DNA from: Terriglobales bacterium
Lineage (GTDB): Bacteria > Acidobacteriota > Terriglobia > Terriglobales > Acidobacteriaceae
DNA: 49,986 nt
Direction of reading: 5' to 3'
Assembly (NCBI GenBank): GCA_035454605.1
Contig: DATIGQ010000131.1
Location: 1 to 49,986 of the forward strand
The position numbers and the translations under genes were made by a program. This document shows positions 14,067 through 25,276 of the stretch, piece after piece (position 1 is the first letter of the stretch; each line of letters opens with the position of its first letter). The notes under the pieces are model-generated. The model did no database searches. It was not told where the DNA came from and saw nothing but the letters and a program-made list of their open reading frames with translations.

Positions 14067-16472
14067 ATGGCAACGCAACGCCCCGGTTACGCCATCCCCT
14101 ACGCCGATCTGGCCACCGCCCTGCTCGCTACCAGCGAAGTGGCTCCCCGGGCGCGCCTGCTAGCCGAGCAGGTGTCGAATCTCGTGCCGGGCGGGGCGGT
14201 AGTGATCTACATACTGGATGAGAACGGGGCTTGGGCTCCCAAAGCTACTGCCGGGGAGGTGGCCTACGAGGAGTCCGCCATCGAGTTCGGCACGGGTACG
14301 CTCGGCGCGATGGCGGAGCGGAACCAATCGGTACTGTTTACGGGCTCTGCGCTGACACGCGAATCGTACTCGCACCTCAACGTGCGCCGTACGGTGGTGT
14401 CCTTGGCTTCGATCCCTCTGCTGGTTGATGAGCGACTGGTAGGCGCCATCGAAGTCCTCACCTTCGATGAACCTATTACCGAGGTTGGCGTCGCCGCCTT
14501 GACCGAACTGGCGCAGTTTGCGGCCCTGGGGCTGGCCGCTGGGGTGGCGTACGAGAACGAGCGCAACACCCAGTTGCAGTCCATCACCCGCATCACCCAG
14601 ATGTACGACCTCGAGAAGGTCTTCAACGCCACACTCGAGATGGACCAACTGCTCCCTGTCATCGCCTCCAAATTCCAGGAAGTGATGAACGTTCAGGCGG
14701 TGAACCTGTGGCTGGTCGAGGACGAAGCTCTGGTCCTGATGAGCCGCGCCGGTGACGATGCCGCTTACGAACTGGAGGCGCGGCAGGCGACGGGCGAAGG
14801 GATTGTGGCTGACGTGGCGGATTCCGGCGAAGGGGTGTGCATCAGCTCCGCCGACGACGAGCGACTGCGGAAGCGCAATGCCCAGGTGGAAGAAGGAGAG
14901 GGTGCGTTTTCTGTTGTGGCGGCACCCATCATTCACCAGGACTCCGTGGTGGGAGTGGCGGAAGCCATCAACAAGAACGACGGGTCACCTTTCGATGAGG
15001 ATGACCTGTTCCTGCTCACCACCATATGTGAGACCGCGGCGAACGCCCTGCACAACGCCGAACTGTTGCAAACGGAACGCAAGGTCGAGATTCTGGAACT
15101 GCTGGTGCAGGTGAGCCAGGAGATCACGTCCACGCTGAACCTGGACCGCGTGCTGCAGACCATCGTCAACGGCACGCAAGCCGTGATTCCCTTCGAGCGC
15201 GCCGCGCTGGCCCTGGAGGAGCGTGGGAAGCTCCGTCTACGCGCAGTCTCCGGCATGCAGGAGGAGTCGGTCGACCTCTCCAACCCTGACCTCGCGGCTC
15301 TCAACGACCTGCTGCTCTGGGCGTCCACCTCCCTGGAGGAGATTCATGTCCGTCAGCACGGCGACGAGATCGACGACCCGCGCGAAGAGACCCGAGCCAA
15401 GTTCACCCGCTATTTCGAACAGACCGGATTGCGCGGGTTTTACGCTGTGCCCCTTTCGGACGATACCGGTCGTGTCGGCGTACTTTCATTCGAAAGCCGC
15501 GACCCCGATTTCCTTTCGACTGCGCACCTGGAGATCATCCGGGTGCTTGCCGGCCAGGCGACGGTCGCCCTGCGCAACGCTCAGATGTACAAGGAAGTCC
15601 CCTTCATCGGCATCCTTGAACCGATTCTACAGAAGAAGCGGAAATTCTTCGCCATGGAGAAGCGGAGCCGGCAGACGTCCCTCATGCTGGCAGGCGCTGT
15701 ACTCGCCTTCCTGGCGGTTGTGCCTCTGCCGATGCGGGTGGATGGCGACGCCACCGTCGCGCCGACATCGCGGGCGCGCATACAGCCGGAGGTCGAGGGC
15801 GTGGTGCGCAAGGTGTACGTGCGTGAGGGCGACGCGGTGACGCGGGGCACAATCCTGGCAGACCTGGAGGACTGGGACTATCGTTCCGCGCTGGCAGGTG
15901 CTGAGGCCAAATTCAACACGGCGGTTGCGGAGATGAATCGTGCCCTGGCTTCGAATGACGGCACCGAGGCCGGCATCCAGCGGGTTCAAGCTGATTACTG
16001 GGCGTCCGAGGTGAAGCGAGCGCGCGAACGTCTGGAGCGGACGCGCTTGCGCGCTCCAATCGACGGAGTCGTGGCAACGCCCCACGTGGAGAACTTCGTT
16101 GGCCGGCACCTCGAGGCCGGGGACGACTTCGCCGAGTTGGTGGATTCCTCGCGGGCCGTCGTGGATGTAAGAGTCCCCGAGAAAGACGTGGCATTGTTGG
16201 AAGCCGGCCACACCGCATCGGTGAAATTGCTCAGCTTTCCCACCCGAACCTTCCGGGGCCGCGTGGTGGTGGTGAGCCCCAAGGGGGAGCCGGCCGAAGA
16301 CGAGCGCTTCTTCTACGCGCGGGTGGCTCTGCCCAACGCGGATGGCGCAATCCGGGCGGGGATGCAGGGCAGGAGCAAAGTTTGGGTGGGCTGGCGCCCG
16401 GCCGGATACGTCATGTTCCGGGGCTCGGCTATGTGGATCTGGTCGAAGCTATGGTCGTGGTTCGGGTGGTGA
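14067..16472 (+). CDS. Triple-GAF sensor fused to an HlyD-type membrane fusion domain
   Basis: An 801-residue protein of unusual build. Residues about 20-165, 190-335 and 345-510 are three GAF-like modules (for example AVVIYILDENGAWAPKATAG; SVVAAPIIHQDSVVGVAEAI; GFYAVPLSDDTGRVGVLSFE). A single transmembrane helix follows (LMLAGAVLAFLAVVPLP, about 536-556). After it comes a periplasmic HlyD module with biotinyl-lipoyl halves (ARIQPEVEGVVRKVYVREGDAVTRG and RLRAPIDGVVATPHVENFVGRHLEAGD). It may gate or tune a secretion pump in response to a cytosolic ligand. CAGGAG precedes the ATG. It is the first gene of a three-gene operon. Confidence 0.9.
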   Translation: MATQRPGYAIPYADLATALLATSEVAPRARLLAEQVSNLVPGGAVVIYILDENGAWAPKATAGEVAYEESAIEFGTGTLGAMAERNQSVLFTGSALTRESYSHLNVRRTVVSLASIPLLVDERLVGAIEVLTFDEPITEVGVAALTELAQFAALGLAAGVAYENERNTQLQSITRITQMYDLEKVFNATLEMDQLLPVIASKFQEVMNVQAVNLWLVEDEALVLMSRAGDDAAYELEARQATGEGIVADVADSGEGVCISSADDERLRKRNAQVEEGEGAFSVVAAPIIHQDSVVGVAEAINKNDGSPFDEDDLFLLTTICETAANALHNAELLQTERKVEILELLVQVSQEITSTLNLDRVLQTIVNGTQAVIPFERAALALEERGKLRLRAVSGMQEESVDLSNPDLAALNDLLLWASTSLEEIHVRQHGDEIDDPREETRAKFTRYFEQTGLRGFYAVPLSDDTGRVGVLSFESRDPDFLSTAHLEIIRVLAGQATVALRNAQMYKEVPFIGILEPILQKKRKFFAMEKRSRQTSLMLAGAVLAFLAVVPLPMRVDGDATVAPTSRARIQPEVEGVVRKVYVREGDAVTRGTILADLEDWDYRSALAGAEAKFNTAVAEMNRALASNDGTEAGIQRVQADYWASEVKRARERLERTRLRAPIDGVVATPHVENFVGRHLEAGDDFAELVDSSRAVVDVRVPEKDVALLEAGHTASVKLLSFPTRTFRGRVVVVSPKGEPAEDERFFYARVALPNADGAIRAGMQGRSKVWVGWRPAGYVMFRGSAMWIWSKLWSWFGW

Positions 16473-16479
16473 ACGGCAG

Positions 16480-17394
16480 ATGAGAGGTGACAATTTGGCC
16501 CAGCGAGTAACCCAAGGTGCGCTGCTGGCGACGGTGCTGATCCTGGCTGGATGTTCGGGCTCGCAGCCGAACCCAGCGCAGCCAGCTGCACCCTCGGCGG
16601 CACCAGCGCCCATCGCCACCACCACAGCCCCGGCAGCCACGACGAGATTCATCGCGTCGGGGCCTTTGGTCGTAGAAAACCAGGTGGACGTGGCGGCCCA
16701 GCGGGAAGGCGTGGTCGCACAGATCCTGATTGACGTTGGAACGCCGGTTCGCACCGGCCAGGTCCTGGCCCGGCTGGATGACAAGCAGTTGCTGGCGGAC
16801 CGCGAGGCCGCAGAAGCCAGGGTGCGCAGCATCGAGGCCGATCTGAAGAACTGGGAATCGTTCGCCAAGGTGTACGAAGCGGACCTGCAGCGCGCCGAGG
16901 AGATGTGGAAGAACGATCTGCTGACCAAGCAGGATTTGGAGCACGCGCGCTACAAGTCCATAGGCTCCAAATACGAAGTGGAGCGGGAGCGGCATAACCT
17001 GGAGAACGCCAGGGCGACCCTTCGGTCGCTGGAGTTGGAGCTGGCAAAGACGCGCATTGCGGCGCCATTCGATGGAGTGGTAGCGCGACGCTACGTGCGC
17101 GCCGGACAGAAGGTCGCTCTCGGCGACCGCCTCTTCTGGGTAACTGCCGTGGCTCCTTTGCGGGTGAAGTTTAATCTTCCGGAGCGCTTCCTCCGGCAGG
17201 TGAAGATCAACCAGGAATTGGCAGTAACCTCTCCCGACGTCCCAGCAGAGCAGTACGGGGCGCGCGTCATCCAGATGAGCCCGGTGGTCGACCCTTCCAG
17301 CGGAACCATCGAAGTATTGGCGCAGCTCAACGGCCCTGCGGGCGAACTCCGGCCCGGTATGATGGTCAACATCCACGTCACCGAGGCGCCGTGA
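16480..17394 (+). CDS. HlyD/RND-type periplasmic adaptor lipoprotein
   Basis: A 304-residue exported adaptor. The signal peptide ends in LILAGC, then a Pro/Ala-rich linker (QPNPAQPAAPSAAPAPIATT). The lipoyl half VAAQREGVVAQILIDVGTPVRTGQVLARLDD is followed by a helical hairpin (about residues 85-175), the second lipoyl half RIAAPFDGVVARRYVRAGQKVALGD, and a beta-barrel ending LRPGMMVNIHVTEAP. Such proteins bridge an inner-membrane pump to an outer-membrane channel; neither an RND pump nor a TolC-like protein is encoded here. The start is 7 bases after the GAF-HlyD stop; the open frame reaches further upstream but inside that gene. Confidence 0.92.
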   Translation: MRGDNLAQRVTQGALLATVLILAGCSGSQPNPAQPAAPSAAPAPIATTTAPAATTRFIASGPLVVENQVDVAAQREGVVAQILIDVGTPVRTGQVLARLDDKQLLADREAAEARVRSIEADLKNWESFAKVYEADLQRAEEMWKNDLLTKQDLEHARYKSIGSKYEVERERHNLENARATLRSLELELAKTRIAAPFDGVVARRYVRAGQKVALGDRLFWVTAVAPLRVKFNLPERFLRQVKINQELAVTSPDVPAEQYGARVIQMSPVVDPSSGTIEVLAQLNGPAGELRPGMMVNIHVTEAP

Positions 17395-19538
17395 ACCTCA
17401 CCGAAGCGCTCAATACAGCGCTTCCGGACATCCCCGCGTTCACCCACGAGCCCCTTCCCAGGCTTCGACCCAACCTGCTTGCCCGCGAGCACACGGTTCG
17501 GGGCGTACCGGTCGTAGTGGGGGTCATCCAGGAAACAGGCTATATCTACCGTTGGGCTCCCGAAGAATGGGAAATGCTCAAGCTGTTCGACGGTACCCGG
17601 ACGTTGCAAGAGATTTCTGACGTTTATGCCGAGCGTTTTGGGGTCCGGTATTCGGTCGACTTCCTGCGCGAACTCGTGGACGTGCTGGACGGACAGGATT
17701 TCTGGTACAAGACGCCCCTGGAACACAACATCGCCCTGCAACAACGGCTTGCCGAAGAACGGCAGAAGAAAGCGAAAAAATCCAAGTATGGCGATGTTTC
17801 CGACCTGCGGCTGATCTACTGGAACCCGAACAACTACCTGCACGCCATCTACCCCTATCTCAAGTTCATCTACACGCCGTGGTTCACCGCCCTCAGCTTT
17901 GCGGCGATGGCTCTGACGCTGTACATCTTCTTGGACCACGGAATGCAAATCTTGTTGGACACGGTGCGGTTCTATACGTTCACGCTGTACACCGCGTCGG
18001 ATTATGTCACTTTCTGGCTGTTAACCTGTTTTGTCCTGTTCATCCACGAGAGCGCCCATGGCCTGACGTGCGTGCATTACGGCGGCAACGTGTACAAGAT
18101 GGGCTTCAACCTGATCTACATGACCCCAGCCTTCTATACGGAGGCGCAGCAGATCTTCGTGCTGGGCAACAAGTGGCAACGCCTGAACACGATCGTATGG
18201 GGTGCATGGTCGGAATTGCTGCTGTGCTTCATCGTGACGCCGATCTGGTGGGGAACGCCGCCGGGAAGCGTGATCCATGAAGTGTGCTACATGCTGATTT
18301 TGGTGACCGGCGTTGCGGTCGTCCTGCTCAATATCAATCCGTTGATCAAACTGGACGGCTATTACGCGCTGACCGAACTGCTGGAACTGCCGATGCTGAA
18401 GGAAGAGTCCACCGCCTACGTCACCAGCTGGGTGAAGAAATACTTCTGGCGGCTGCCGGTGGAAGTCCCTTTCGTGCCCCGACGCCGGCGGCTGGGATAT
18501 GTGATTTATTGCCTCGTATCCGGTCTGTATAGCTACACCTTGCTCCTGTGGGCGACGCGGCTGGTCACCCGGATTGCCACTAGCTTCACTCCGGATTGGG
18601 GCTTTCTTGTGGGCATCTTAGTGGGGTACCGGCTGTTTCGTTCCCGCATCCACGCCTTTGGGAGGCTCATGAAAACCATCTACCTGGATAAGAAGGAACG
18701 TGTGCAGGCCTGGTTCAGTCGCCCGCGCCTGTTGGCTACAGCGGTGGCTGTGGGTGTCCTCCTGTTTGCGCCTTTGTGGCCGGAGTCCGTGCAAGGGCCC
18801 TTCGTACTCGAACCCCTAAGCCGTGCTCCCGTGCGAGCGGTCGTGCCGGGGATGGTGACAGCAGTTCATATCGAAGAGGGGCAGCAGGTCAAGGCTGGGA
18901 TGCCGGTGGCAACCTTGCGCAACCTGTCGCTGGAGAGCGAAGCGGCTCGGGCCGCGGCAGACTACCAAATGGCTTCGGCTCAAGCCACCCGGGCTCGCCT
19001 GCTTTACACGGACTACGCCGCGGCGGAAGAAGAAAAGGAACGAGTGGCCGAGCTCAGCCGAAGCCGGGCCGAAGAGGTCTCCAAGTTGCAGTTGATCAGC
19101 CCCATCGACGGCACCGTCCTCACGCCGCGCGTGCATGACCGCGTGGGATCGTACCTTAGGGCTGGAACAGAACTGGCTGAGATCGCAGATCTTTCGACCC
19201 TCCGGGCTCGCATCTATTTGCGCGAGTCGGAGATTCGCAAGGCCCGTCCGGGCCAGGAGGCGAAGATCTTGGTGCACGCCTCGCCCATTCCAGTCTCCGG
19301 GACCGTAGTAGCCATCGCGCCTGTTGCCTCCAAGGCAGAGGCAGGCCTGGTTCAGGAGAGCGTTTATCGGGGCATCCAGACGCCAAATTTCTATGCCTGC
19401 GATATCCACCTTGCCAATCCCGAAGGCCTCCTGGGGCCGCAGATGAGCGGCACGGCGAAGGTCTTCACAGGGCGGCGTAGCATCGCAGGTCTAGCGTGGG
19501 AGCCAGTTCAGGAGTTTCTCTCCCGCAGAATCTGGTGA
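17391..19538 (+). CDS. PqqD-like / M50 metalloprotease / HlyD fusion (peptide zinc metalloprotease family)
   Basis: A 715-residue membrane protein. Residues about 25-110 form a PqqD-like domain (LFDGTRTLQEISDVYAERFG..DFLRELVDVLDG), the fold that binds leader peptides in RiPP pathways. Next is an M50 site-2-protease-like membrane core with HESAHG (His219, Glu220, His223) and NPLIKLDGYY (Asp322), the full zinc site. Further helices lead to a C-terminal lipoyl/HlyD domain (RAVVPGMVTAVHIEEGQQVKAGMPV; LISPIDGTVLTPRVHDRVGSYL). Similar proteins are annotated as putative peptide zinc metalloproteases of bacteriocin export loci. The GTG start overlaps the previous stop by four bases. Confidence 0.9.
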   Translation: MNLTEALNTALPDIPAFTHEPLPRLRPNLLAREHTVRGVPVVVGVIQETGYIYRWAPEEWEMLKLFDGTRTLQEISDVYAERFGVRYSVDFLRELVDVLDGQDFWYKTPLEHNIALQQRLAEERQKKAKKSKYGDVSDLRLIYWNPNNYLHAIYPYLKFIYTPWFTALSFAAMALTLYIFLDHGMQILLDTVRFYTFTLYTASDYVTFWLLTCFVLFIHESAHGLTCVHYGGNVYKMGFNLIYMTPAFYTEAQQIFVLGNKWQRLNTIVWGAWSELLLCFIVTPIWWGTPPGSVIHEVCYMLILVTGVAVVLLNINPLIKLDGYYALTELLELPMLKEESTAYVTSWVKKYFWRLPVEVPFVPRRRRLGYVIYCLVSGLYSYTLLLWATRLVTRIATSFTPDWGFLVGILVGYRLFRSRIHAFGRLMKTIYLDKKERVQAWFSRPRLLATAVAVGVLLFAPLWPESVQGPFVLEPLSRAPVRAVVPGMVTAVHIEEGQQVKAGMPVATLRNLSLESEAARAAADYQMASAQATRARLLYTDYAAAEEEKERVAELSRSRAEEVSKLQLISPIDGTVLTPRVHDRVGSYLRAGTELAEIADLSTLRARIYLRESEIRKARPGQEAKILVHASPIPVSGTVVAIAPVASKAEAGLVQESVYRGIQTPNFYACDIHLANPEGLLGPQMSGTAKVFTGRRSIAGLAWEPVQEFLSRRIW

Positions 19539-19540
19539 GC

Positions 19541-19584
19541 AAGAAAAAACAGAAGAGCTGCGAGGAACGAATCTCGCAGCTCTT
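19541..19584. terminator. Rho-independent terminator, mainly for the repeat-peptide gene
   Basis: A perfect 12-bp stem (AAGAGCTGCGAG, 19553-19564, pairing with 19573-19584) with an 8-base loop. On the minus strand it is followed by CTGTTTTTTC, which makes a canonical terminator 27 bases after the repeat-peptide stop. On the plus strand it lacks a T-run but may still protect the convergent operon. Confidence 0.85.
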
Positions 19585-19610
19585 CGAACCACTCGGAGGT
19601 TGGCGCTGAC

Positions 19611-19862
19611 TTAACCCAAGCCGCCGGGACCCTGGAAGCCACCAGGACCTTGGAAACCGCCCGGTCCCTGGAAGCCACCCGGACCTTGGAATCCACCCGG
19701 GCCCTGGAATCCGCCGGGACCCTGGAAGCCACCCGGCCCTTGGAAGCCACCGGGACCCTGAAAGCCACCCTTCTTGCCGGTGAGCCCCTTGGTGCTGCCC
19801 CGCTTGGCAATGGTAGCCTTCTTGGCAGCCGAACGGCTCTTGATCAACGATTTCTTCTTCAT
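19611..19862 (-). CDS. Basic peptide with eight GGFQGP repeats (candidate secreted or modified peptide)
   Basis: An 83-residue protein I do not recognise. Residues 1-31 are Lys/Arg/Ser/Thr-rich ([15 protein letters not shown] at the start; no Asp or Glu). Residues 32-79 are eight perfect GGFQGP hexapeptides, ending GGLG. There is no cysteine anywhere and no Ser/Thr in the repeats. The codons vary at third positions (CAG/CAA, GGN, CCN) while the amino acids are identical, which argues for selection on the peptide. AGGGGGA lies seven bases before the ATG, a sigma-54-like promoter lies upstream, and a strong terminator follows. Neighbours encode a PqqD-M50-HlyD protein and a radical SAM protein, so it may be their substrate; a nucleic-acid-binding or structural role is an alternative. 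Confidence 0.8.
19614..19769 (-). repeat. Tandem 18-base repeats encoding GGFQGP
   Basis: Eight in-frame 18-base units plus a partial one. Units differ mostly at synonymous third positions. Period and reading frame match the peptide exactly. Confidence 0.9.
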
Positions 19863-19925
19863 TTCAAATCCCCCTGAATGTCTAGTTTGAGGTTTGTCCT
19901 AACTCCCCACTTGACCAATAGAATC

Positions 19926-19942
19926 AGCAAGCTGGTGACCAA
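19926..19942 (-). promoter_or_regulatory. Sigma-54 type -24/-12 promoter of the repeat-peptide gene
   Basis: The minus strand reads TTGGTCACCAGCTTGCT. GG and GC are exactly 10 bases apart and the -12 block is TTGCT, as required for sigma-54. The predicted start is near 19915, giving a leader of about 52 bases. An inverted repeat GGTGAC-CAAA-GTCACC (19934-19949) overlaps the -24 block. A sigma-54 activator gene lies immediately upstream. Confidence 0.6.
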
Positions 19943-20004: not shown

Positions 20005-20063
20005 CCGATCAAGGAGTAGACGAAGACCAATAATTCGCCCTTTAATGGTTGAGAATTTGGTCG

Positions 20064-21458
20064 TTAAATCTTGTACTTGCGGCAGAGATAGCCCATCTTG
20101 CGCGCGTCGATGCGCAGCAATTGGGCGGCAGCGACCTTCCTGCCGTTGACGCGACGCAGGGCGGTTTCCAGATAGGCCGCCTCGATGCGCTCCATCTCTT
20201 TCACGAAGTCAATCCCTTCTTGTGGAATGAGCAGGTCCTCGTGCCGGGCCGCGCTTTCGTAGAGGATGGGGCCGGGCAGGTCTTTCACAGTGATTACCGG
20301 CCGTTCCACCATCAGTACAAGCCGCTGGATCAGATTCTCCAGCTCGCGCACGTTGCCACGCCAGGGATTTTCCTCCAGGACCTCAAGGACCTCCGGTTCT
20401 ACGCGCTTCAAGGGAACGTTATTGGCGGCGCAGTACAGCCGGAGGAAATGGTCCACGAGCAGGGGGATATCGCCCGGCCGTTGGCGGAGCGGGGGCAGGA
20501 AGATAGGAATGACGTGAACGCGATAGTAGAGGTCCTCGCGGAAGAGCCCTTTGCGGACGCCGTCTTCCAGATCGTCGTTGGTGGCGGTGATGAGCCGGAA
20601 ATCAATCTTCTTCGCCGTCTTGGCACCGATGCGCTGCACAGCGCGGTCTTCCAGCACGCGCAGCAGCTTGCTCTGCAGCGCCAACGGAAGGCTGCCGATC
20701 TCGTCCAGGAACAGCGTGCCGCCGTGGGCCACCTCGATGTGGCCGGGCCGCGAGGCGACCGCGCCGGTGAACGATCCCCTTTCATGCCCAAACAGCTCAG
20801 CCTCGATCAGGGTTTCCGGGATGGCCCCGCAATTTACGCTGATGAAAGGCTTCTCCGCCCGCGGGCTGCTCCGGACGATGGCCCGGGCCACAAGCTCCTT
20901 GCCCGTACCGCTTTCGCCCCGGATCATGACCGTGGTGTTGGTCTGGGCCACGCGACGGATGGCGTCATAGACGCGGCGCATGGGCTCGCTGCCCCCGATT
21001 AGTTCGCAGAAGGAGTACTTTTGAGAGATCTGCTCACGCAGCCGCCGATTCTCGATCTCCATGCTCCGGCGGTCCAGAGCGCGCTCGAGCACGATTTGCA
21101 ATTCCTGGAAATCCACCGGAGCGACAAAAAATTCGTCCGCGCCTACCGCTCCGGCTTTCAGCCTCACGCTGCGGCTGTGTGAACGTGTCAGCGCGATGAG
21201 TACCAGGTCCCTGCCGATGCGGCGCAGTTCCGCCAGTGCGTCCAGTCCCAGAGCCGTGGACTCGGCGATAGTGTCGATGTCCAGAAGGATGGCATCCAAT
21301 GGCGCACGACTCATCAATCCCAGAATCCCATCCCAGGTGCTGAGGCAGGCTGTTTGGAATGCTGGGGTCAGGAACTGCTCGATGTCGGGCAAGGCGGATT
21401 CGTCGGTGGTGACGATGGCAATCCGGCGTTCCGGACCTGGAGTGATGGAAGCGTGCAT
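20064..21458 (-). CDS. Sigma-54-dependent response regulator (NtrC family) with degenerate receiver
   Basis: A 464-residue activator. Residues 10-130 are receiver-like, with an aspartate at LLDIDT (60/62), but the usual acidic pair is TTDES and the conserved Lys is Ala (VAPVDF), so phosphorylation may not control it. The AAA+ domain has Walker A GESGTGKE (181-188), the sigma-54 contact loop GSFTGA (228-233, Ser for the usual Ala) and Walker B GGTLFLDEIG. A C-terminal Fis-like helix-turn-helix ends the protein (NGRKVAAAQLLRIDARKMGYLCRKYKI region). The start MHASITPGPE follows GGGGGA. It sits directly upstream of the sigma-54-like promoter of the repeat-peptide gene and is its likely activator. 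Confidence 0.93.
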   Translation of the reverse strand: MHASITPGPERRIAIVTTDESALPDIEQFLTPAFQTACLSTWDGILGLMSRAPLDAILLDIDTIAESTALGLDALAELRRIGRDLVLIALTRSHSRSVRLKAGAVGADEFFVAPVDFQELQIVLERALDRRSMEIENRRLREQISQKYSFCELIGGSEPMRRVYDAIRRVAQTNTTVMIRGESGTGKELVARAIVRSSPRAEKPFISVNCGAIPETLIEAELFGHERGSFTGAVASRPGHIEVAHGGTLFLDEIGSLPLALQSKLLRVLEDRAVQRIGAKTAKKIDFRLITATNDDLEDGVRKGLFREDLYYRVHVIPIFLPPLRQRPGDIPLLVDHFLRLYCAANNVPLKRVEPEVLEVLEENPWRGNVRELENLIQRLVLMVERPVITVKDLPGPILYESAARHEDLLIPQEGIDFVKEMERIEAAYLETALRRVNGRKVAAAQLLRIDARKMGYLCRKYKI

Positions 21459-21532
21459 GGGAAATCCCCCGCGACAGGGGAGGGGGAGAGTATAGACCAA
21501 ATTTTTGCCGCAGGTGGGGGAAAATTAGACAC

Positions 21533-21588: not shown

Positions 21589-22689
21589 TTAGTTATCGGT
21601 GCTCGGCCGCCCGGACCAGCCGTGGAGCCCTTGCTTGATGATCCAGCGCAGCACGTTGTTGTTGTTGTAGTAGTAGCCCAGGACGTACTGGCAGGTCGAC
21701 AAGCAGTGGGAGTTACAGACCTTTTTCATCTCCTCCAGCTGCTGGAAGTCGAACTTGTGTTCCCAGATCTGTCCCCAGTCGGTCTTGGCCGAGTACATGG
21801 GAAAACAAGGGGACAAGCTGCCGTCGGTGCGGATGACACAGGAATTCCAGCCGGCACGGCAATTCCAGGGATAGGTGACGCCGCGCATGAAGTCTTTCAT
21901 CTTGCGCAGATGATCCTTGGAATTGACCATGATGTAGCCCTGCGCATTCTTCTCGATCAGCCAGTCCAGCAGCTCGTCCACCCGCGGCCAATCGTCACGC
22001 AGAATGTAGGTGACGTTGTCGTTCAGGTGCTGGAAGTGGGGCTGCTCGATGTAGGGCGGCTCGTTGATGTGCACGTCGGTGGAGATGCCGTTGTCATGGG
22101 CGATCTCCGTCAGCTTGTAGACGTCTTCAATGTTGTTGCGGCAGATGTTGGTGTTGAAGACGATCATGTAGTTGTACTGGCGCTGCTGCTTCACCAGGTA
22201 CTTGAACTGCTTCTCGATGCGCTTGAAGTTCTTGGGCAGGCCGGGGCGCTCCTCGAGCGCGTCCACGGCCAGATTGATGGCGGCCACGCCGGCGTCGCCC
22301 ACGCGGTCGACAAAGTCCTCGTTCATGAGGATGCCGTTGGTGGGCAGGTAGACGAAAAAGCCGTTCTTGGTGCCGTAATCCACCACCTTCAGGATCATGT
22401 CCCGGCGCAGCAGGGGCTCGCCGCCCATGATGGCGATCACGCGGCAACCCACCGACTTGAGCCAGTCGATGGAGCGCACGGCGGTCTCTTCCGTCATGCC
22501 CTTGACCTTGTTGTTGAACGCCCAGCAATAGTGACAATCCACATTGCATTTCCACTCCGTGAACAAGTAGGAAAGCAACGGGCGAAACTGGTCGGAATAC
22601 ACCCGCGACTGCACGTAGGGAACGAACCAGCGGCGGAACGCACGCACAAAGTTGTTGGCGTGGTAACTCCGCGTTTCGAGCTCCGGCAT
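21589..22689 (-). CDS. Radical SAM protein with SPASM-like C-terminal cysteines
   Basis: A 366-residue radical SAM enzyme. The [4Fe-4S] motif is CNVDCHYCWAF (Cys48, Cys52, Cys55) and the SAM-binding GGEP is at 89-92. The C-terminal part has six further cysteines (277, 284, 295, 325, 329, 333; CRAGWNSC, SPC, CNSHCLSTC), a SPASM-like pattern for auxiliary clusters common in peptide-modifying enzymes. AAGGAGG lies just before the ATG. It has its own promoter, a leader hairpin and a terminator. It is in the same locus as the repeat peptide and PqqD-M50-HlyD protein. A role outside peptide modification cannot be excluded. Confidence 0.9.
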   Translation of the reverse strand: MPELETRSYHANNFVRAFRRWFVPYVQSRVYSDQFRPLLSYLFTEWKCNVDCHYCWAFNNKVKGMTEETAVRSIDWLKSVGCRVIAIMGGEPLLRRDMILKVVDYGTKNGFFVYLPTNGILMNEDFVDRVGDAGVAAINLAVDALEERPGLPKNFKRIEKQFKYLVKQQRQYNYMIVFNTNICRNNIEDVYKLTEIAHDNGISTDVHINEPPYIEQPHFQHLNDNVTYILRDDWPRVDELLDWLIEKNAQGYIMVNSKDHLRKMKDFMRGVTYPWNCRAGWNSCVIRTDGSLSPCFPMYSAKTDWGQIWEHKFDFQQLEEMKKVCNSHCLSTCQYVLGYYYNNNNVLRWIIKQGLHGWSGRPSTDN

Positions 22690-22749
22690 CAAGCCTCCTT
22701 GAGTTCGCGAACCGGGGCCAGCCAGGGCTGCCCCAGCATCCTGCAACAA

Positions 22750-23556: not shown

Positions 23557-24315
23557 TTACTGTTGGGGTGAAGCGCTTTCGGGGGGGTCGTAGGAAACCT
23601 GTGGTGGCTGGCTGCTCGCACGAGCGTCGAGCATGTCGAACCGCCATGAGCCGTCGGTGAACCCACCCCAGCGGGGAACCCGGATGTTGCCGTATTGCTC
23701 CAGGGGCCCGAAGATGAACTCCAGTTTTCTCTCGCCCACCGCAGCGCCCCACAACACCGGCTCGGCCAGCGGGCTGAGCCGGAACCAGCAGAGCGGCCCT
23801 CCTCCTCGCTCATGCACTTCAAGGAGTTCTCCCTTCATACGCAGCTCGATGCTGGGATCCTCAGCCGCGATGAGATGGAACATCCGAAACATGTCCCGCT
23901 TCCAGAATCCTCGCTCCATCGCCAGATGCTCCTCCGAGAACCGCGAGACCTTGCCGTCGATCATTCTCCAGCCGCCGCGGGCATCATACGCGCGCAAGCG
24001 GGTTCCGAGTTCGTTCTTGATGGACACCTTCAATCGCGGTGTCTTGAAGTCAATCCACTCCTCGTGAATGATGGACTCTTTCCACTCCAGGACGTGGAAC
24101 CTCTGTTTGAGATGCAGGGACACGAGCTGCGCCCACAGAGTTTTTCCGCCAACCCTTTCCACCATCCTCTCGGCCAAGGCAATGGCTTGGGGCTCTCCCG
24201 CAAGACCTTCCGCAGCAGCGGGAGAAGAAACGGCAGAAACCAGGACGAGGAGGGGGACAATCCTTCGGCCCCAGACTCCCATAACCCGGCTACGAGGACG
24301 ATGAGTTTTCGTCAT
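23557..24315 (-). CDS. Secreted hypothetical protein, paralogue of the next gene
   Basis: A 252-residue exported protein that I do not recognise. The signal peptide is VMGVWGRRIVPLLVLVSAVSSPAAA. The mature part begins with a helix (AIALAERMVERVGGKTLWAQLVSLHLKQ), followed by alternating beta-strands (EEWIDFKTPRLKVSIKNELG, GGWRMIDGKVSRFSEEHL, KLEFIFGPLEQYGNIRVPRWGGF). The layout resembles exported lipoprotein-carrier-like beta sheets, but that is a guess. GGAGGAG lies eight bases before the ATG. It shares order and phrases with the upstream gene (WAQL/WAKL, FGPxxxxGNxRVPxW), so the two are tandem duplicates in one operon. Confidence 0.8.
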   Translation of the reverse strand: MTKTHRPRSRVMGVWGRRIVPLLVLVSAVSSPAAAEGLAGEPQAIALAERMVERVGGKTLWAQLVSLHLKQRFHVLEWKESIIHEEWIDFKTPRLKVSIKNELGTRLRAYDARGGWRMIDGKVSRFSEEHLAMERGFWKRDMFRMFHLIAAEDPSIELRMKGELLEVHERGGGPLCWFRLSPLAEPVLWGAAVGERKLEFIFGPLEQYGNIRVPRWGGFTDGSWRFDMLDARASSQPPQVSYDPPESASPQQ

Positions 24316-24382: not shown

Positions 24383-25147
24383 CTATTCCGTTTTCTCCTG
24401 CTCCTTGTGCTTTGTAAACTCCCGCGGCGGTACGAACAGCGACGGGTCGGGGGCGTGATGGGAGCCCGTGAGGGATCGCATCTCATAGGTGACCGCACCG
24501 TTGCCGGTCGTCGCCCAGTTCGGAACTCGAAGATTCCCGAAGCGCTTCATGGGTCCGAACGTGTAGCGATACTCAGTCGTCGCCCAGGCCAGAGGTTCTT
24601 TCCGGATGTTCAGCTGCATCCAGCCGCGGGGTACGCCATCCGGTCCACGGAACTCGAGCCGGCGTGAGCCTTTGAAATCCCCCTCCACGAATCGCACTTC
24701 GTAGAAGGGATCACCGATGGCGATGGCTCTTGCGAGCCGGACGAAGTGAAAAGGCGCGCGCGCCGTTGACATCCTGAACTCGTCATCGCCGCCCCAGGAG
24801 AATTCGTCATTGACGACGCGCCAGATCTTGTGCTCCGGACTAAATCCCTGGACGCTGTAGTTAATCTCGCTTTTCTTTTCTATCCACGATCGGGGGACCG
24901 TAAGATCCAGGATCTCGTTTTCAACATAGGAATCGGCGCGGTTCCAGATGCGCCATTCATGAACGAAGTGGATGCTCTTCAGCTTTGCCCAGATCTCACG
25001 GCCTCCCATGGTGGCCACCATCGCCTCTGCTTCGGCAATCGCCGCGGGGTCGCCGCGCAGGCCCGCCGCTGGCGCGGCTTTCTCCTGGCCAGACAGAAGA
25101 ACTGCGCACAACAAAAGCGGGACAGTCAGCCAGGCGCGCTGCTGCAT
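24383..25147 (-). CDS. Secreted hypothetical protein, paralogue of the previous gene
   Basis: A 254-residue exported protein. The signal peptide is QQRAWLTVPLLLCAVLLSGQ. The mature domain repeats the plan of its downstream neighbour: AEAMVATMGGREIWAKLKSIHFVHEW, NEILDLTVPRSWIEKKSEINY, YTFGPMKRFGNLRVPNWATTG. The start is the second of two adjacent ATGs, with GGGGAGG five bases before it; the first ATG would leave only two bases of spacing. Identity to the paralogue is modest, so the duplication is old. Function unknown; the sheet-rich domain and export suggest an outer-membrane or periplasmic binding protein. Confidence 0.8.
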   Translation of the reverse strand: MQQRAWLTVPLLLCAVLLSGQEKAAPAAGLRGDPAAIAEAEAMVATMGGREIWAKLKSIHFVHEWRIWNRADSYVENEILDLTVPRSWIEKKSEINYSVQGFSPEHKIWRVVNDEFSWGGDDEFRMSTARAPFHFVRLARAIAIGDPFYEVRFVEGDFKGSRRLEFRGPDGVPRGWMQLNIRKEPLAWATTEYRYTFGPMKRFGNLRVPNWATTGNGAVTYEMRSLTGSHHAPDPSLFVPPREFTKHKEQEKTE

Positions 25148-25276
25148 CATTGCCTCCCCTGGCGCGGAAGAATCCCGACCCAACGCGGTCCGTCTCATCC
25201 GCAACGCCAGCAGCCGTGCATAGTATGGAGGCAGGCGCGATACCGAAATTGCGAATCTTCGGCGAGAGCGCTGGGG

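Follow-up and report, generated by a model that had tools for sequence, protein, structure and literature searches.

Daptide gene clusters were found through RiPP-recognition elements (RREs) fused N-terminally to a site-2 protease; their precursors carry the leader motif ELExMEAP, and the protease MpaP combines the RRE with the site-2 protease and removes the leader (PMC10036551). A review gives the epipeptide protease EpeP as thought to both cut and export its peptide (PMC10885120). Type I and RND tripartite export systems use periplasmic adaptors such as MacA, MexA and HlyD. In the PEP-CTERM-box response regulator system, an exported product is under sigma-54 control. Bacteriocins typically place variable cargo behind a constant leader, while yeast alpha-factor and the fungal KEX2-processed repeat proteins are multicopy precursors, the fungal proteins joining a constant front end to variable tandem units. 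Repeats of the KPAA type are known from AlgP and histone H1-like proteins.

The peptide gene described here lies in a stretch of 49,986 nucleotides from a bacterium of the order Terriglobales (the window), and it converges on a gene for a fusion of an RRE-like domain, an M50 protease and an HlyD adaptor (M50-HlyD, Table 1). Like daptide MpaP and the NCBIfam model NF041824, M50-HlyD has its predicted RRE-like domain N-terminal to the protease, and NF041824 is its best NCBIfam match (124 bits against a cut-off of 300). Unlike MpaP, it adds a C-terminal HlyD adaptor, the leader motif of the peptide is KKSLI, and many of the cores are repeats. The C-terminal Thr of daptide precursors is absent from the peptides examined, and no daptide oxidative decarboxylase, aminotransferase or methyltransferase is conserved with the cassette among open reading frames (ORFs) of at least 100 aa. 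EpeP (YydH-LiaK, NF058609) also has an M50 protease like that of the window (a match of 25 bits against 225), but here no radical SAM epimerase is conserved and the protease is fused to HlyD. The adaptor fold of the M50-HlyD C-terminus and the adaptor profiles in two neighbouring proteins recall Type I and RND export, but no ABC or RND pump, ATPase or TolC is seen in the cassette among ORFs of at least 100 aa, and the adaptors are fused to protease and GAF domains. As for ABC-type bacteriocin export, its GG-type leader motif is absent from the 37 aligned leaders and no transporter is conserved.

The adjacent regulator has the PEP-CTERM-box response regulator model TIGR02915 as its second-best NCBIfam match (366 bits, short of the cut-off of 503), and inspection of the peptide found no PEP-CTERM sorting signal. 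Unlike the fungal KEX2-processed proteins, the system is bacterial, with no dibasic sites in the units of the window and a different protease. A few cores of the family are of the KPA type seen in AlgP, but most are not, and a leader and an export cassette are present. Since no conserved modifying enzyme is seen, we do not class the peptide among the RiPPs or the daptides. By analogy, the system would seem to operate as an RRE-protease leader system to which an efflux adaptor has been fused. In the literature searched, we did not meet together an RRE-like intramembrane protease with an efflux adaptor, a repeat unit that is swapped yet held, and a private sigma-54 circuit.

Results

The peptide and its gene

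The first-pass annotation of the window, made from the DNA alone, had described an 83-residue ORF with a basic, acid-free N-terminal third and eight perfect GGFQGP units, all of which we confirm. Residues 1–31 contain no D or E and the N-terminus is basic, the eight units are consecutive, and they are followed by the C-terminal tail GGLG. The units have one amino acid sequence in seven DNA versions, and the array is the only tandem array that TRF finds in the whole window (period 18, 8.5 copies, 79% matches). The strong Shine-Dalgarno and the strong terminator reported at first pass are also present (Table 1). The terminator has a stem of 13 bp with a U6 run (-26.4 kcal/mol, z -4.85), and none of 200 shuffles was as stable. 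RNA families in the window amount to one tRNA.

Table 1. Positions in the window of the peptide gene, its signals and the genes of the cassette
Feature	Position	Strand	Remarks
Peptide gene, 83 aa: leader and eight GGFQGP units	19611..19862	minus	ATG start
Conserved leader, residues 1-21	19800..19862	minus	alignment of 37 leaders
Repeat core, eight GGFQGP units, residues 32-79	19626..19769	minus	
Shine-Dalgarno AGGGGG, 7 bases 5' of ATG, rated good	19870..19875	minus	
Intrinsic terminator of the peptide gene, in convergent gap	19545..19585	minus	
Sigma-54-type -24/-12 promoter TGGTCACCAGCTTGC, 79 bp 5' of ATG	19927..19941	minus	15 of 18; conserved in closest relative
Possible diverged enhancer pair GACCAAATTCTCAAC and GGGCGAATTATTGGTC	20025..20063	minus	weak, tentative
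Sigma-54 dependent response regulator (receiver, AAA+, Fis-type HTH)	20064..21500	minus	TTG start called, true start uncertain
M50-HlyD, 715 aa: RRE-like domain, M50 intramembrane metalloprotease (HESAH, NPLIKLDG), HlyD adaptor	17391..19538	plus	
RiPP-recognition-element-like domain of M50-HlyD, residues 23-107	17457..17711	plus	model pLDDT 83, fold matches
HlyD / RND-type periplasmic adaptor	16342..17394	plus	start probably downstream of called one; in 33/38 loci
GAF-HlyD, 801 aa: three GAF domains, hydrophobic stretch (probably transmembrane, by inspection), HlyD adaptor	14067..16472	plus	

The annotation knew of no described family with this plan, and database searches bear this out. The window peptide matches no Pfam or NCBIfam family and no PDB sequence at E<=0.01, and its family was not found in Pfam, NCBIfam or the literature searched, beyond weak low-complexity matches. 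Taken as such were the matches of the window peptide to a PHROGs tail-fibre profile (E 6.9e-6), of a GLSGAK member to Collagen (E 0.00016, under the gathering score) and of an LQRGT member to a pentapeptide-repeat family (E 0.00047, far under the cut-off).

A conserved leader in the Acidobacteriaceae

A contig scan with the window peptide alone found no relative, probably owing to low complexity, and relatives were obtained instead by a leader profile and by an M50 alignment. A whole-genome search gave the first orthologues, which have similar first 20 residues and other repeats: GGLQGG (G001), GLSGAK (G080), GLKGGA (G060) and LATKGG (G025). The leader consensus is M-x-x-Q-KKSLI-xx-R-x-A-x-KKAI-x-A, and a profile built from five leaders matches 59 of the 398 genomes of the GTDB family of the window (E<=0.01). 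Across 37 aligned leaders K3, K4, L6 and I7 are invariant, S5, K15, A16 and A19 are present in at least 90%, and conservation stops at about residue 21. A conserved leader followed by a variable core is the precursor plan of RiPPs. The phylum-wide leader search gave matches in nine of 396 genomes, and as every one of these is in the family of the window, the KKSLI leader is narrow in range. Whole-peptide matches in G002, G024, G029, G034, G038, G076, G082, G085 and G124 were to other proteins or frames and were dropped; true members in G002, G024 and G038 were later recovered by the leader profile.

Repeat units differ between lineages and are held within them

The cores are lineage-specific and include, besides GGFQGP, GLSGAK (20 copies), LAPNK (18), KPGAL (17), AADAGSM and others. 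Whole arrays differ between lineages, GLSGGK in G002 against GLSGAK in G080 of the same genus. At least four perfect tandem units are found in 31 of 67 distinct peptides, which use 29 different units of 3–8 residues; these peptides include near-identical relatives, and the 79-locus set introduced below overlaps the 38-locus set (same peptides), so that the counts are not independent. Exact repetition is not essential, since the other 36 peptides have fewer than four perfect tandem units, down to none. Pooled core composition is 19% Ala, 12% Ser, 12% Gly and 10% Lys; Trp is absent, and Cys and Tyr each make up 0.1%.

Mismatches between unit copies number 241, 120 and 1004 at codon positions 1, 2 and 3, with about 2800 sites each. 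The regions counted were picked on DNA alone, blind to frame, as a control for the pooled pN/pS of 0.20 over 61 arrays, a value biased low by the choice of regions on amino-acid match. Such DNA-only repeat regions passed in 60 of the 67 genes, and all 60 lags are multiples of 3. With third-position mismatches dominating and a pN/pS of 0.20, many unit copies have drifted at silent sites and retained their residues. Selection thus acts on the units as protein.

A cassette of five recurring genes

We compared 38 loci, the window and 37 others. The sigma-54 regulator is encoded upstream of the peptide in all 38, on the same strand in 37, and the regulator of the window is 50–88% identical to those of the other loci. 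In 33 loci the peptide gene converges on the M50-HlyD, HlyD and GAF-HlyD genes (one of the 33 GAF-HlyD genes is partial). Four of the five loci without this trio end at a contig end (L023, L058, L070, L073); the fifth, in G025 (L024), has about 10 kb of downstream sequence with no M50 gene, which is on another contig. Clustering of ORFs within 11 kb, which covers those of at least 100 aa and could miss smaller conserved genes, yielded five recurring genes and no modifying enzyme or transporter common to the loci. It also gave many clusters that were read by offset and strand as overlapping frames of the five genes, and lists flanking genes of some lineages, for example an 8-locus cluster about 2.7 kb upstream.

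Of the 398 family genomes, 79 have M50-HlyD, and when the lists were compared by hand 56 of the 59 leader genomes appeared in both, the exceptions being G051, G272 and G351. Twenty-three M50-positive genomes were missed by the leader profile. A peptide is encoded in 16 of the 19 flanks examined, and its leader has often diverged (for instance MAITKKSLIG or MAILKKSIVS); the remaining three flanks end within 250 bp.

The M50-HlyD protein and its RRE-like domain

The protease motif residues H219, E220, H223, N316, P317, D322 and G323 are invariant in 32 of 32 M50-HlyD members, and Pfam PF02163 is found in all 32 at E<=1 (best 4.8e-7). With both HExxH and NPxxKxDG present, the protein belongs by motif to the M50 (site-2) proteases, and its C-terminal part matches MacA/MexA adaptors.

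Residues 1–131, modelled separately, have a pLDDT of 83 and the topology b-b-b-a-a-a. The VIA alignment is headed by leader-bound lasso-peptide B1 proteins (Z 9.0, 8.4 and 8.3), and the others among the top ten include PqqD (7.1), TigE (7.0), CteB, a cyanobactin heterocyclase and ThcOx. These ten rows (Z 9.0–6.0 overall) are RREs or RRE-bearing RiPP enzymes; the first unrelated row has Z 5.9, and Z 9.0 is only slightly above the best Z of 7–8 that the tool states as typical of models lacking a clear match. In Foldseek, lasso B1 and sactipeptide proteins come out on top, but at E 0.017 or worse, and Pfam PqqD is reached by three of the 32 members (best E 0.095). We therefore call the domain RRE-like at the level of the predicted fold, an assignment that the analogy with the daptide proteases strengthens.

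Promoter, enhancer and regulator

Each of the 66 peptide genes whose upstream sequence is long enough has, at -58 to -107, a -24/-12 site with a score of 15–18 of 18. The consensus and its weights are general ones and were not fitted to these genes, and shuffles of single bases scored at least 15 in 12.8% of trials and never 18, a score reached by 13 real genes. The sigma-54-like promoter noted at first pass keeps its GG-N10-GC, but its score of 15 is among the 8 weakest of 66. GG-N10-GC, as expected of a sigma-54 regulon, is present in the putative promoters, that of the window included. Word counts upstream of the peptide genes exposed an enhancer-like motif, GGTTAAN3TTAACC, which scores 11–12 of 12 in 43 of the 66 regions against 0.08% of shuffles, the motif having been found and scored on overlapping sets of the same sequences. 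Two sites scoring at least 9 occur in 50 of the 66 regions, often 22 bp apart as judged by eye. The canonical motif is absent from the window.

The recognition helix of the regulator reads M-K-Y in all 22 loci with an enhancer score of 11–12. The enhancer is missing from the window, from G001 (M-G-Y) and from G080 (M-A-Y), and all three have G or A at this helix position. Six regulators (L062, L063, L064, L065, L070, L076) have M-H-Y or M-Q-Y, and most of them go with GATTAA/TTAATC-type sites, which L063 matches poorly. Five M-K-Y loci score only 7–10 for the enhancer (L079, L078, L071, L024, L066); the comparison leaves out L074 (truncated) and L083 (I-K-Y). Because the helix varies together with the enhancer-like sites, this covariation would, on balance, tie the adjacent regulator to the peptide gene.

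The change from M-K-Y to M-H-Y or M-Q-Y alongside that from GGTTAA to GATTAA/TTAATC is a possible natural specificity switch. Among 37 readable regulators, 26 have a GAFTGA-like sigma-54 contact loop (GSFTGA in the window), and in the other 11 the loop reads GAFTDA, GAYTDA or GSFTDA. GAFTDA in place of GAFTGA is unusual in enhancer-binding proteins and may impair sigma-54 contact.

The neighbouring radical SAM gene

Next but one to the peptide gene is a radical SAM/SPASM gene (21589–22749, minus strand), whose product has maturase-like profile matches far under cut-off. It was rejected as a peptide maturase. It adjoins the peptide in only 6 of 38 loci. Among 150 genomes searched, orthologues of 87–98% are present in seven others; one genome with a close orthologue (G004) has no leader match, and in two (G026, G055) the orthologue and the peptide are on different contigs. 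The gene is apparently unrelated to the peptide, and a dedicated radical SAM maturase that co-occurs with its precursor, as in glycine-rich or triceptide-type systems, was not found across the loci. A TehB-like methyltransferase near the radical SAM gene of the window matches the daptide methyltransferase model weakly (30 bits against 175), and is not common to most loci.

The radical SAM/SPASM protein is far more conserved than its neighbours, with homologues of 50–72% in the other 44 matched genomes. Elsewhere in the window, adjacent genes at 23557–24315 and 24383–25204 (minus strand) encode proteins of 252 and 273 aa that start alike and are possibly paralogous; the 252-aa protein has no NCBIfam match.

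Wider relatives of the cassette

A contig scan with the M50 alignment was followed up for the best 80 of 363 relatives, which correspond to 79 loci. A KKSL-type peptide follows the M50 gene in 53 of these (49, then 4 more), in records named Granulicella, Edaphobacter, Sulfotelmatobacter, Korobacter, Acidobacteriaceae and others, and the contig ends within 300 bp in a further 12. Of the remaining 14 loci, seven come from other Acidobacteriota and hold different peptides at the corresponding place, every one with a sigma-54-like site that scores 16–17 of 18. These peptides carry LQRAS six times (L148), LQRGAGV (L149) or LQRGT repeats (L163); L151 and L157 have, about 0.7 kb beyond the M50 end, 12–13-residue RKAPLSVDAEAN-like repeats that follow a second type of leader, MADPKSVVIKLTNEQQEAIRRATGQEI, and L152 and L159 have this second leader without clear repeats. 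No peptide candidate was found in L154 and L158, and repeat peptides sought by one script in the five loci from other phyla (L161, L162, L164–L166) were not found.

One of these five, L161 (Gemmatimonadota), has a 49-aa ORF with ELEERIAP about 5.4 kb upstream of the M50 end. The peptide, MTYSKKVRIELTDEQ...ELEERIAPRRPGLA, precedes genes for GAF-HlyD, HlyD and M50-HlyD and a protein kinase. It resembles the leader of L151 and L157 and weakly matches the NHLP-clan family Os1348 (E 0.0099, 16 bits against 40). Its ELEERIAP, beside a distant M50-HlyD homologue, resembles by eye the daptide ELExMEAP. In two Bdellovibrio-like loci, M50-HlyD and HlyD genes are flanked by genes for large proteins, of 1226 aa at L162:10081-13761 (plus strand) and 1012 aa at L164:2099-5137 (minus strand). 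Both proteins begin ...KLEERIAPGMLGG, with N-terminal KKLEERIAPGMLGG, and they are possibly large cargo of the same type of machine.

Discussion

The peptide is probably the cargo of a dedicated, leader-guided cut-and-export cassette, which soil Acidobacteria carry as a set of five genes. Statistics compiled from the sequences establish a conserved leader, a core that varies between lineages yet is held within each, fixed partners, and a recognition helix that covaries with enhancer-like sites. In the mechanism that we propose, phosphorylation of the regulator would lead to the peptide being made in bulk from the sigma-54 promoter, and the KKSLI leader would dock on the RRE-like domain of M50-HlyD. 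The intramembrane M50 protease would then cleave the leader close to the conserved A-x-x-A, and the core would be passed outward, via a periplasmic bridge, by the HlyD portions of all three membrane proteins. The released core may act as it is, being short, of low complexity, mostly rich in Ala, Ser, Gly and Lys and almost free of Cys, Trp and Tyr. A modified and exported peptide was among the suggestions made at first pass. Its export half is favoured by the fixed RRE-like-M50-HlyD, HlyD and GAF-HlyD neighbours, while modification is not supported, as no conserved modifying enzyme is seen and the cores have next to none of these three residues.

Within the export reading, we favour, tentatively, a surface or matrix polymer as the role of the core; we lean to a secreted polymer since the family runs from perfect arrays to no array at all, its composition remaining of low complexity throughout. 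A multicopy signal is possible and nearly as plausible, and an antimicrobial is rather unlikely. A more far-reaching reading, possible but less likely than not, is a previously unrecognised secretion route, in which the RRE-protease-adaptor fusion would recognise the KKSLI leader and deliver an unmodified, lineage-specific repeat polymer or signal to the outside. Units would be replaced between lineages and yet purified to identity within many of them, under a dedicated sigma-54 regulator-enhancer pair, and LEERIAP-type leaders would extend the route beyond Acidobacteriota, including the Bdellovibrio-like proteins of more than 1000 aa.

The nearest contender, though we hold it doubtful, is a multicopy precursor of a lineage-specific small peptide signal, each unit of which would be cut out after export. 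Identical units would then be selected because each is the same message, and the units are indeed identical in protein and not in DNA, and differ between lineages and between two cassettes of one genome. However, no conserved receptor or further protease is seen in the cassette among ORFs of at least 100 aa, repeats are imperfect or lacking in several members (L189, L142, L147), and inspection of the units found no shared cutting motif. Export of a bacteriocin-like antimicrobial peptide by the cassette is unlikely: it would suit the many cationic cores and the variable cargo behind a constant leader, but the same set of ORFs holds no conserved immunity-like gene, and some cores are neutral or acidic. 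Cores such as GGFQGP, NSPLS and AADAGSM, which may be neutral or acidic, also speak against an intracellular basic protein, nucleic-acid-binding or a scaffold, that never leaves the cell, as does the near-constant partnership with a membrane protease-adaptor. That reading has in its favour the basic N-terminus and the likeness of some cores to H1-like KPA repeats (KPAI, KLAAKAPA), and we consider it quite unlikely; nucleic-acid binding, which the first-pass annotation had raised, is on account of these cores an unlikely function for the family.

Still less probable is a modified peptide (RiPP) in which the neighbouring radical SAM/SPASM enzyme would install cross-links in the repeats. The position of that gene and the RRE-like domain in the cassette point this way, but the gene is beside only those six loci, its close orthologues include one in a genome lacking a leader match (G004) and two on contigs other than that of the peptide (G026, G055), the cores have no Trp and hardly any Cys or Tyr, and no other enzyme family is seen to be conserved among ORFs of at least 100 aa. 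That the ORF arose by chance in a DNA minisatellite, as its 18-bp tandem DNA repeat might suggest, has a negligible probability and is refuted by the leader, frame, promoter and neighbours conserved in many genomes, as well as by the dominance of third-position changes and by the lags, all multiples of 3. The first-pass annotation had taken codons that vary under fixed amino acids as a mark of a selected peptide, and orthologues, codon-position counts and the conserved promoter agree with it. It had also named the lack of an orthologue with conserved frame, or a dN/dS near 1, as the outcome to expect of a chance ORF; the orthologues keep the frame, and changes between units are mostly synonymous.

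Cultured genera carry the cassette (Granulicella and Edaphobacter records), which opens peptide secretion, cleavage of the leader and the function of the repeats to direct testing. The family also offers a clean natural system for studying concerted change of tandem protein repeats. One genome, G151, holds two cassettes (L072 and L087) with different units, VGHSPKV and RVQS, and L103 and L106 of the record series JAIQEU are likewise two cassettes with different repeat units. The unit is thus a property of the cassette and not of the species.
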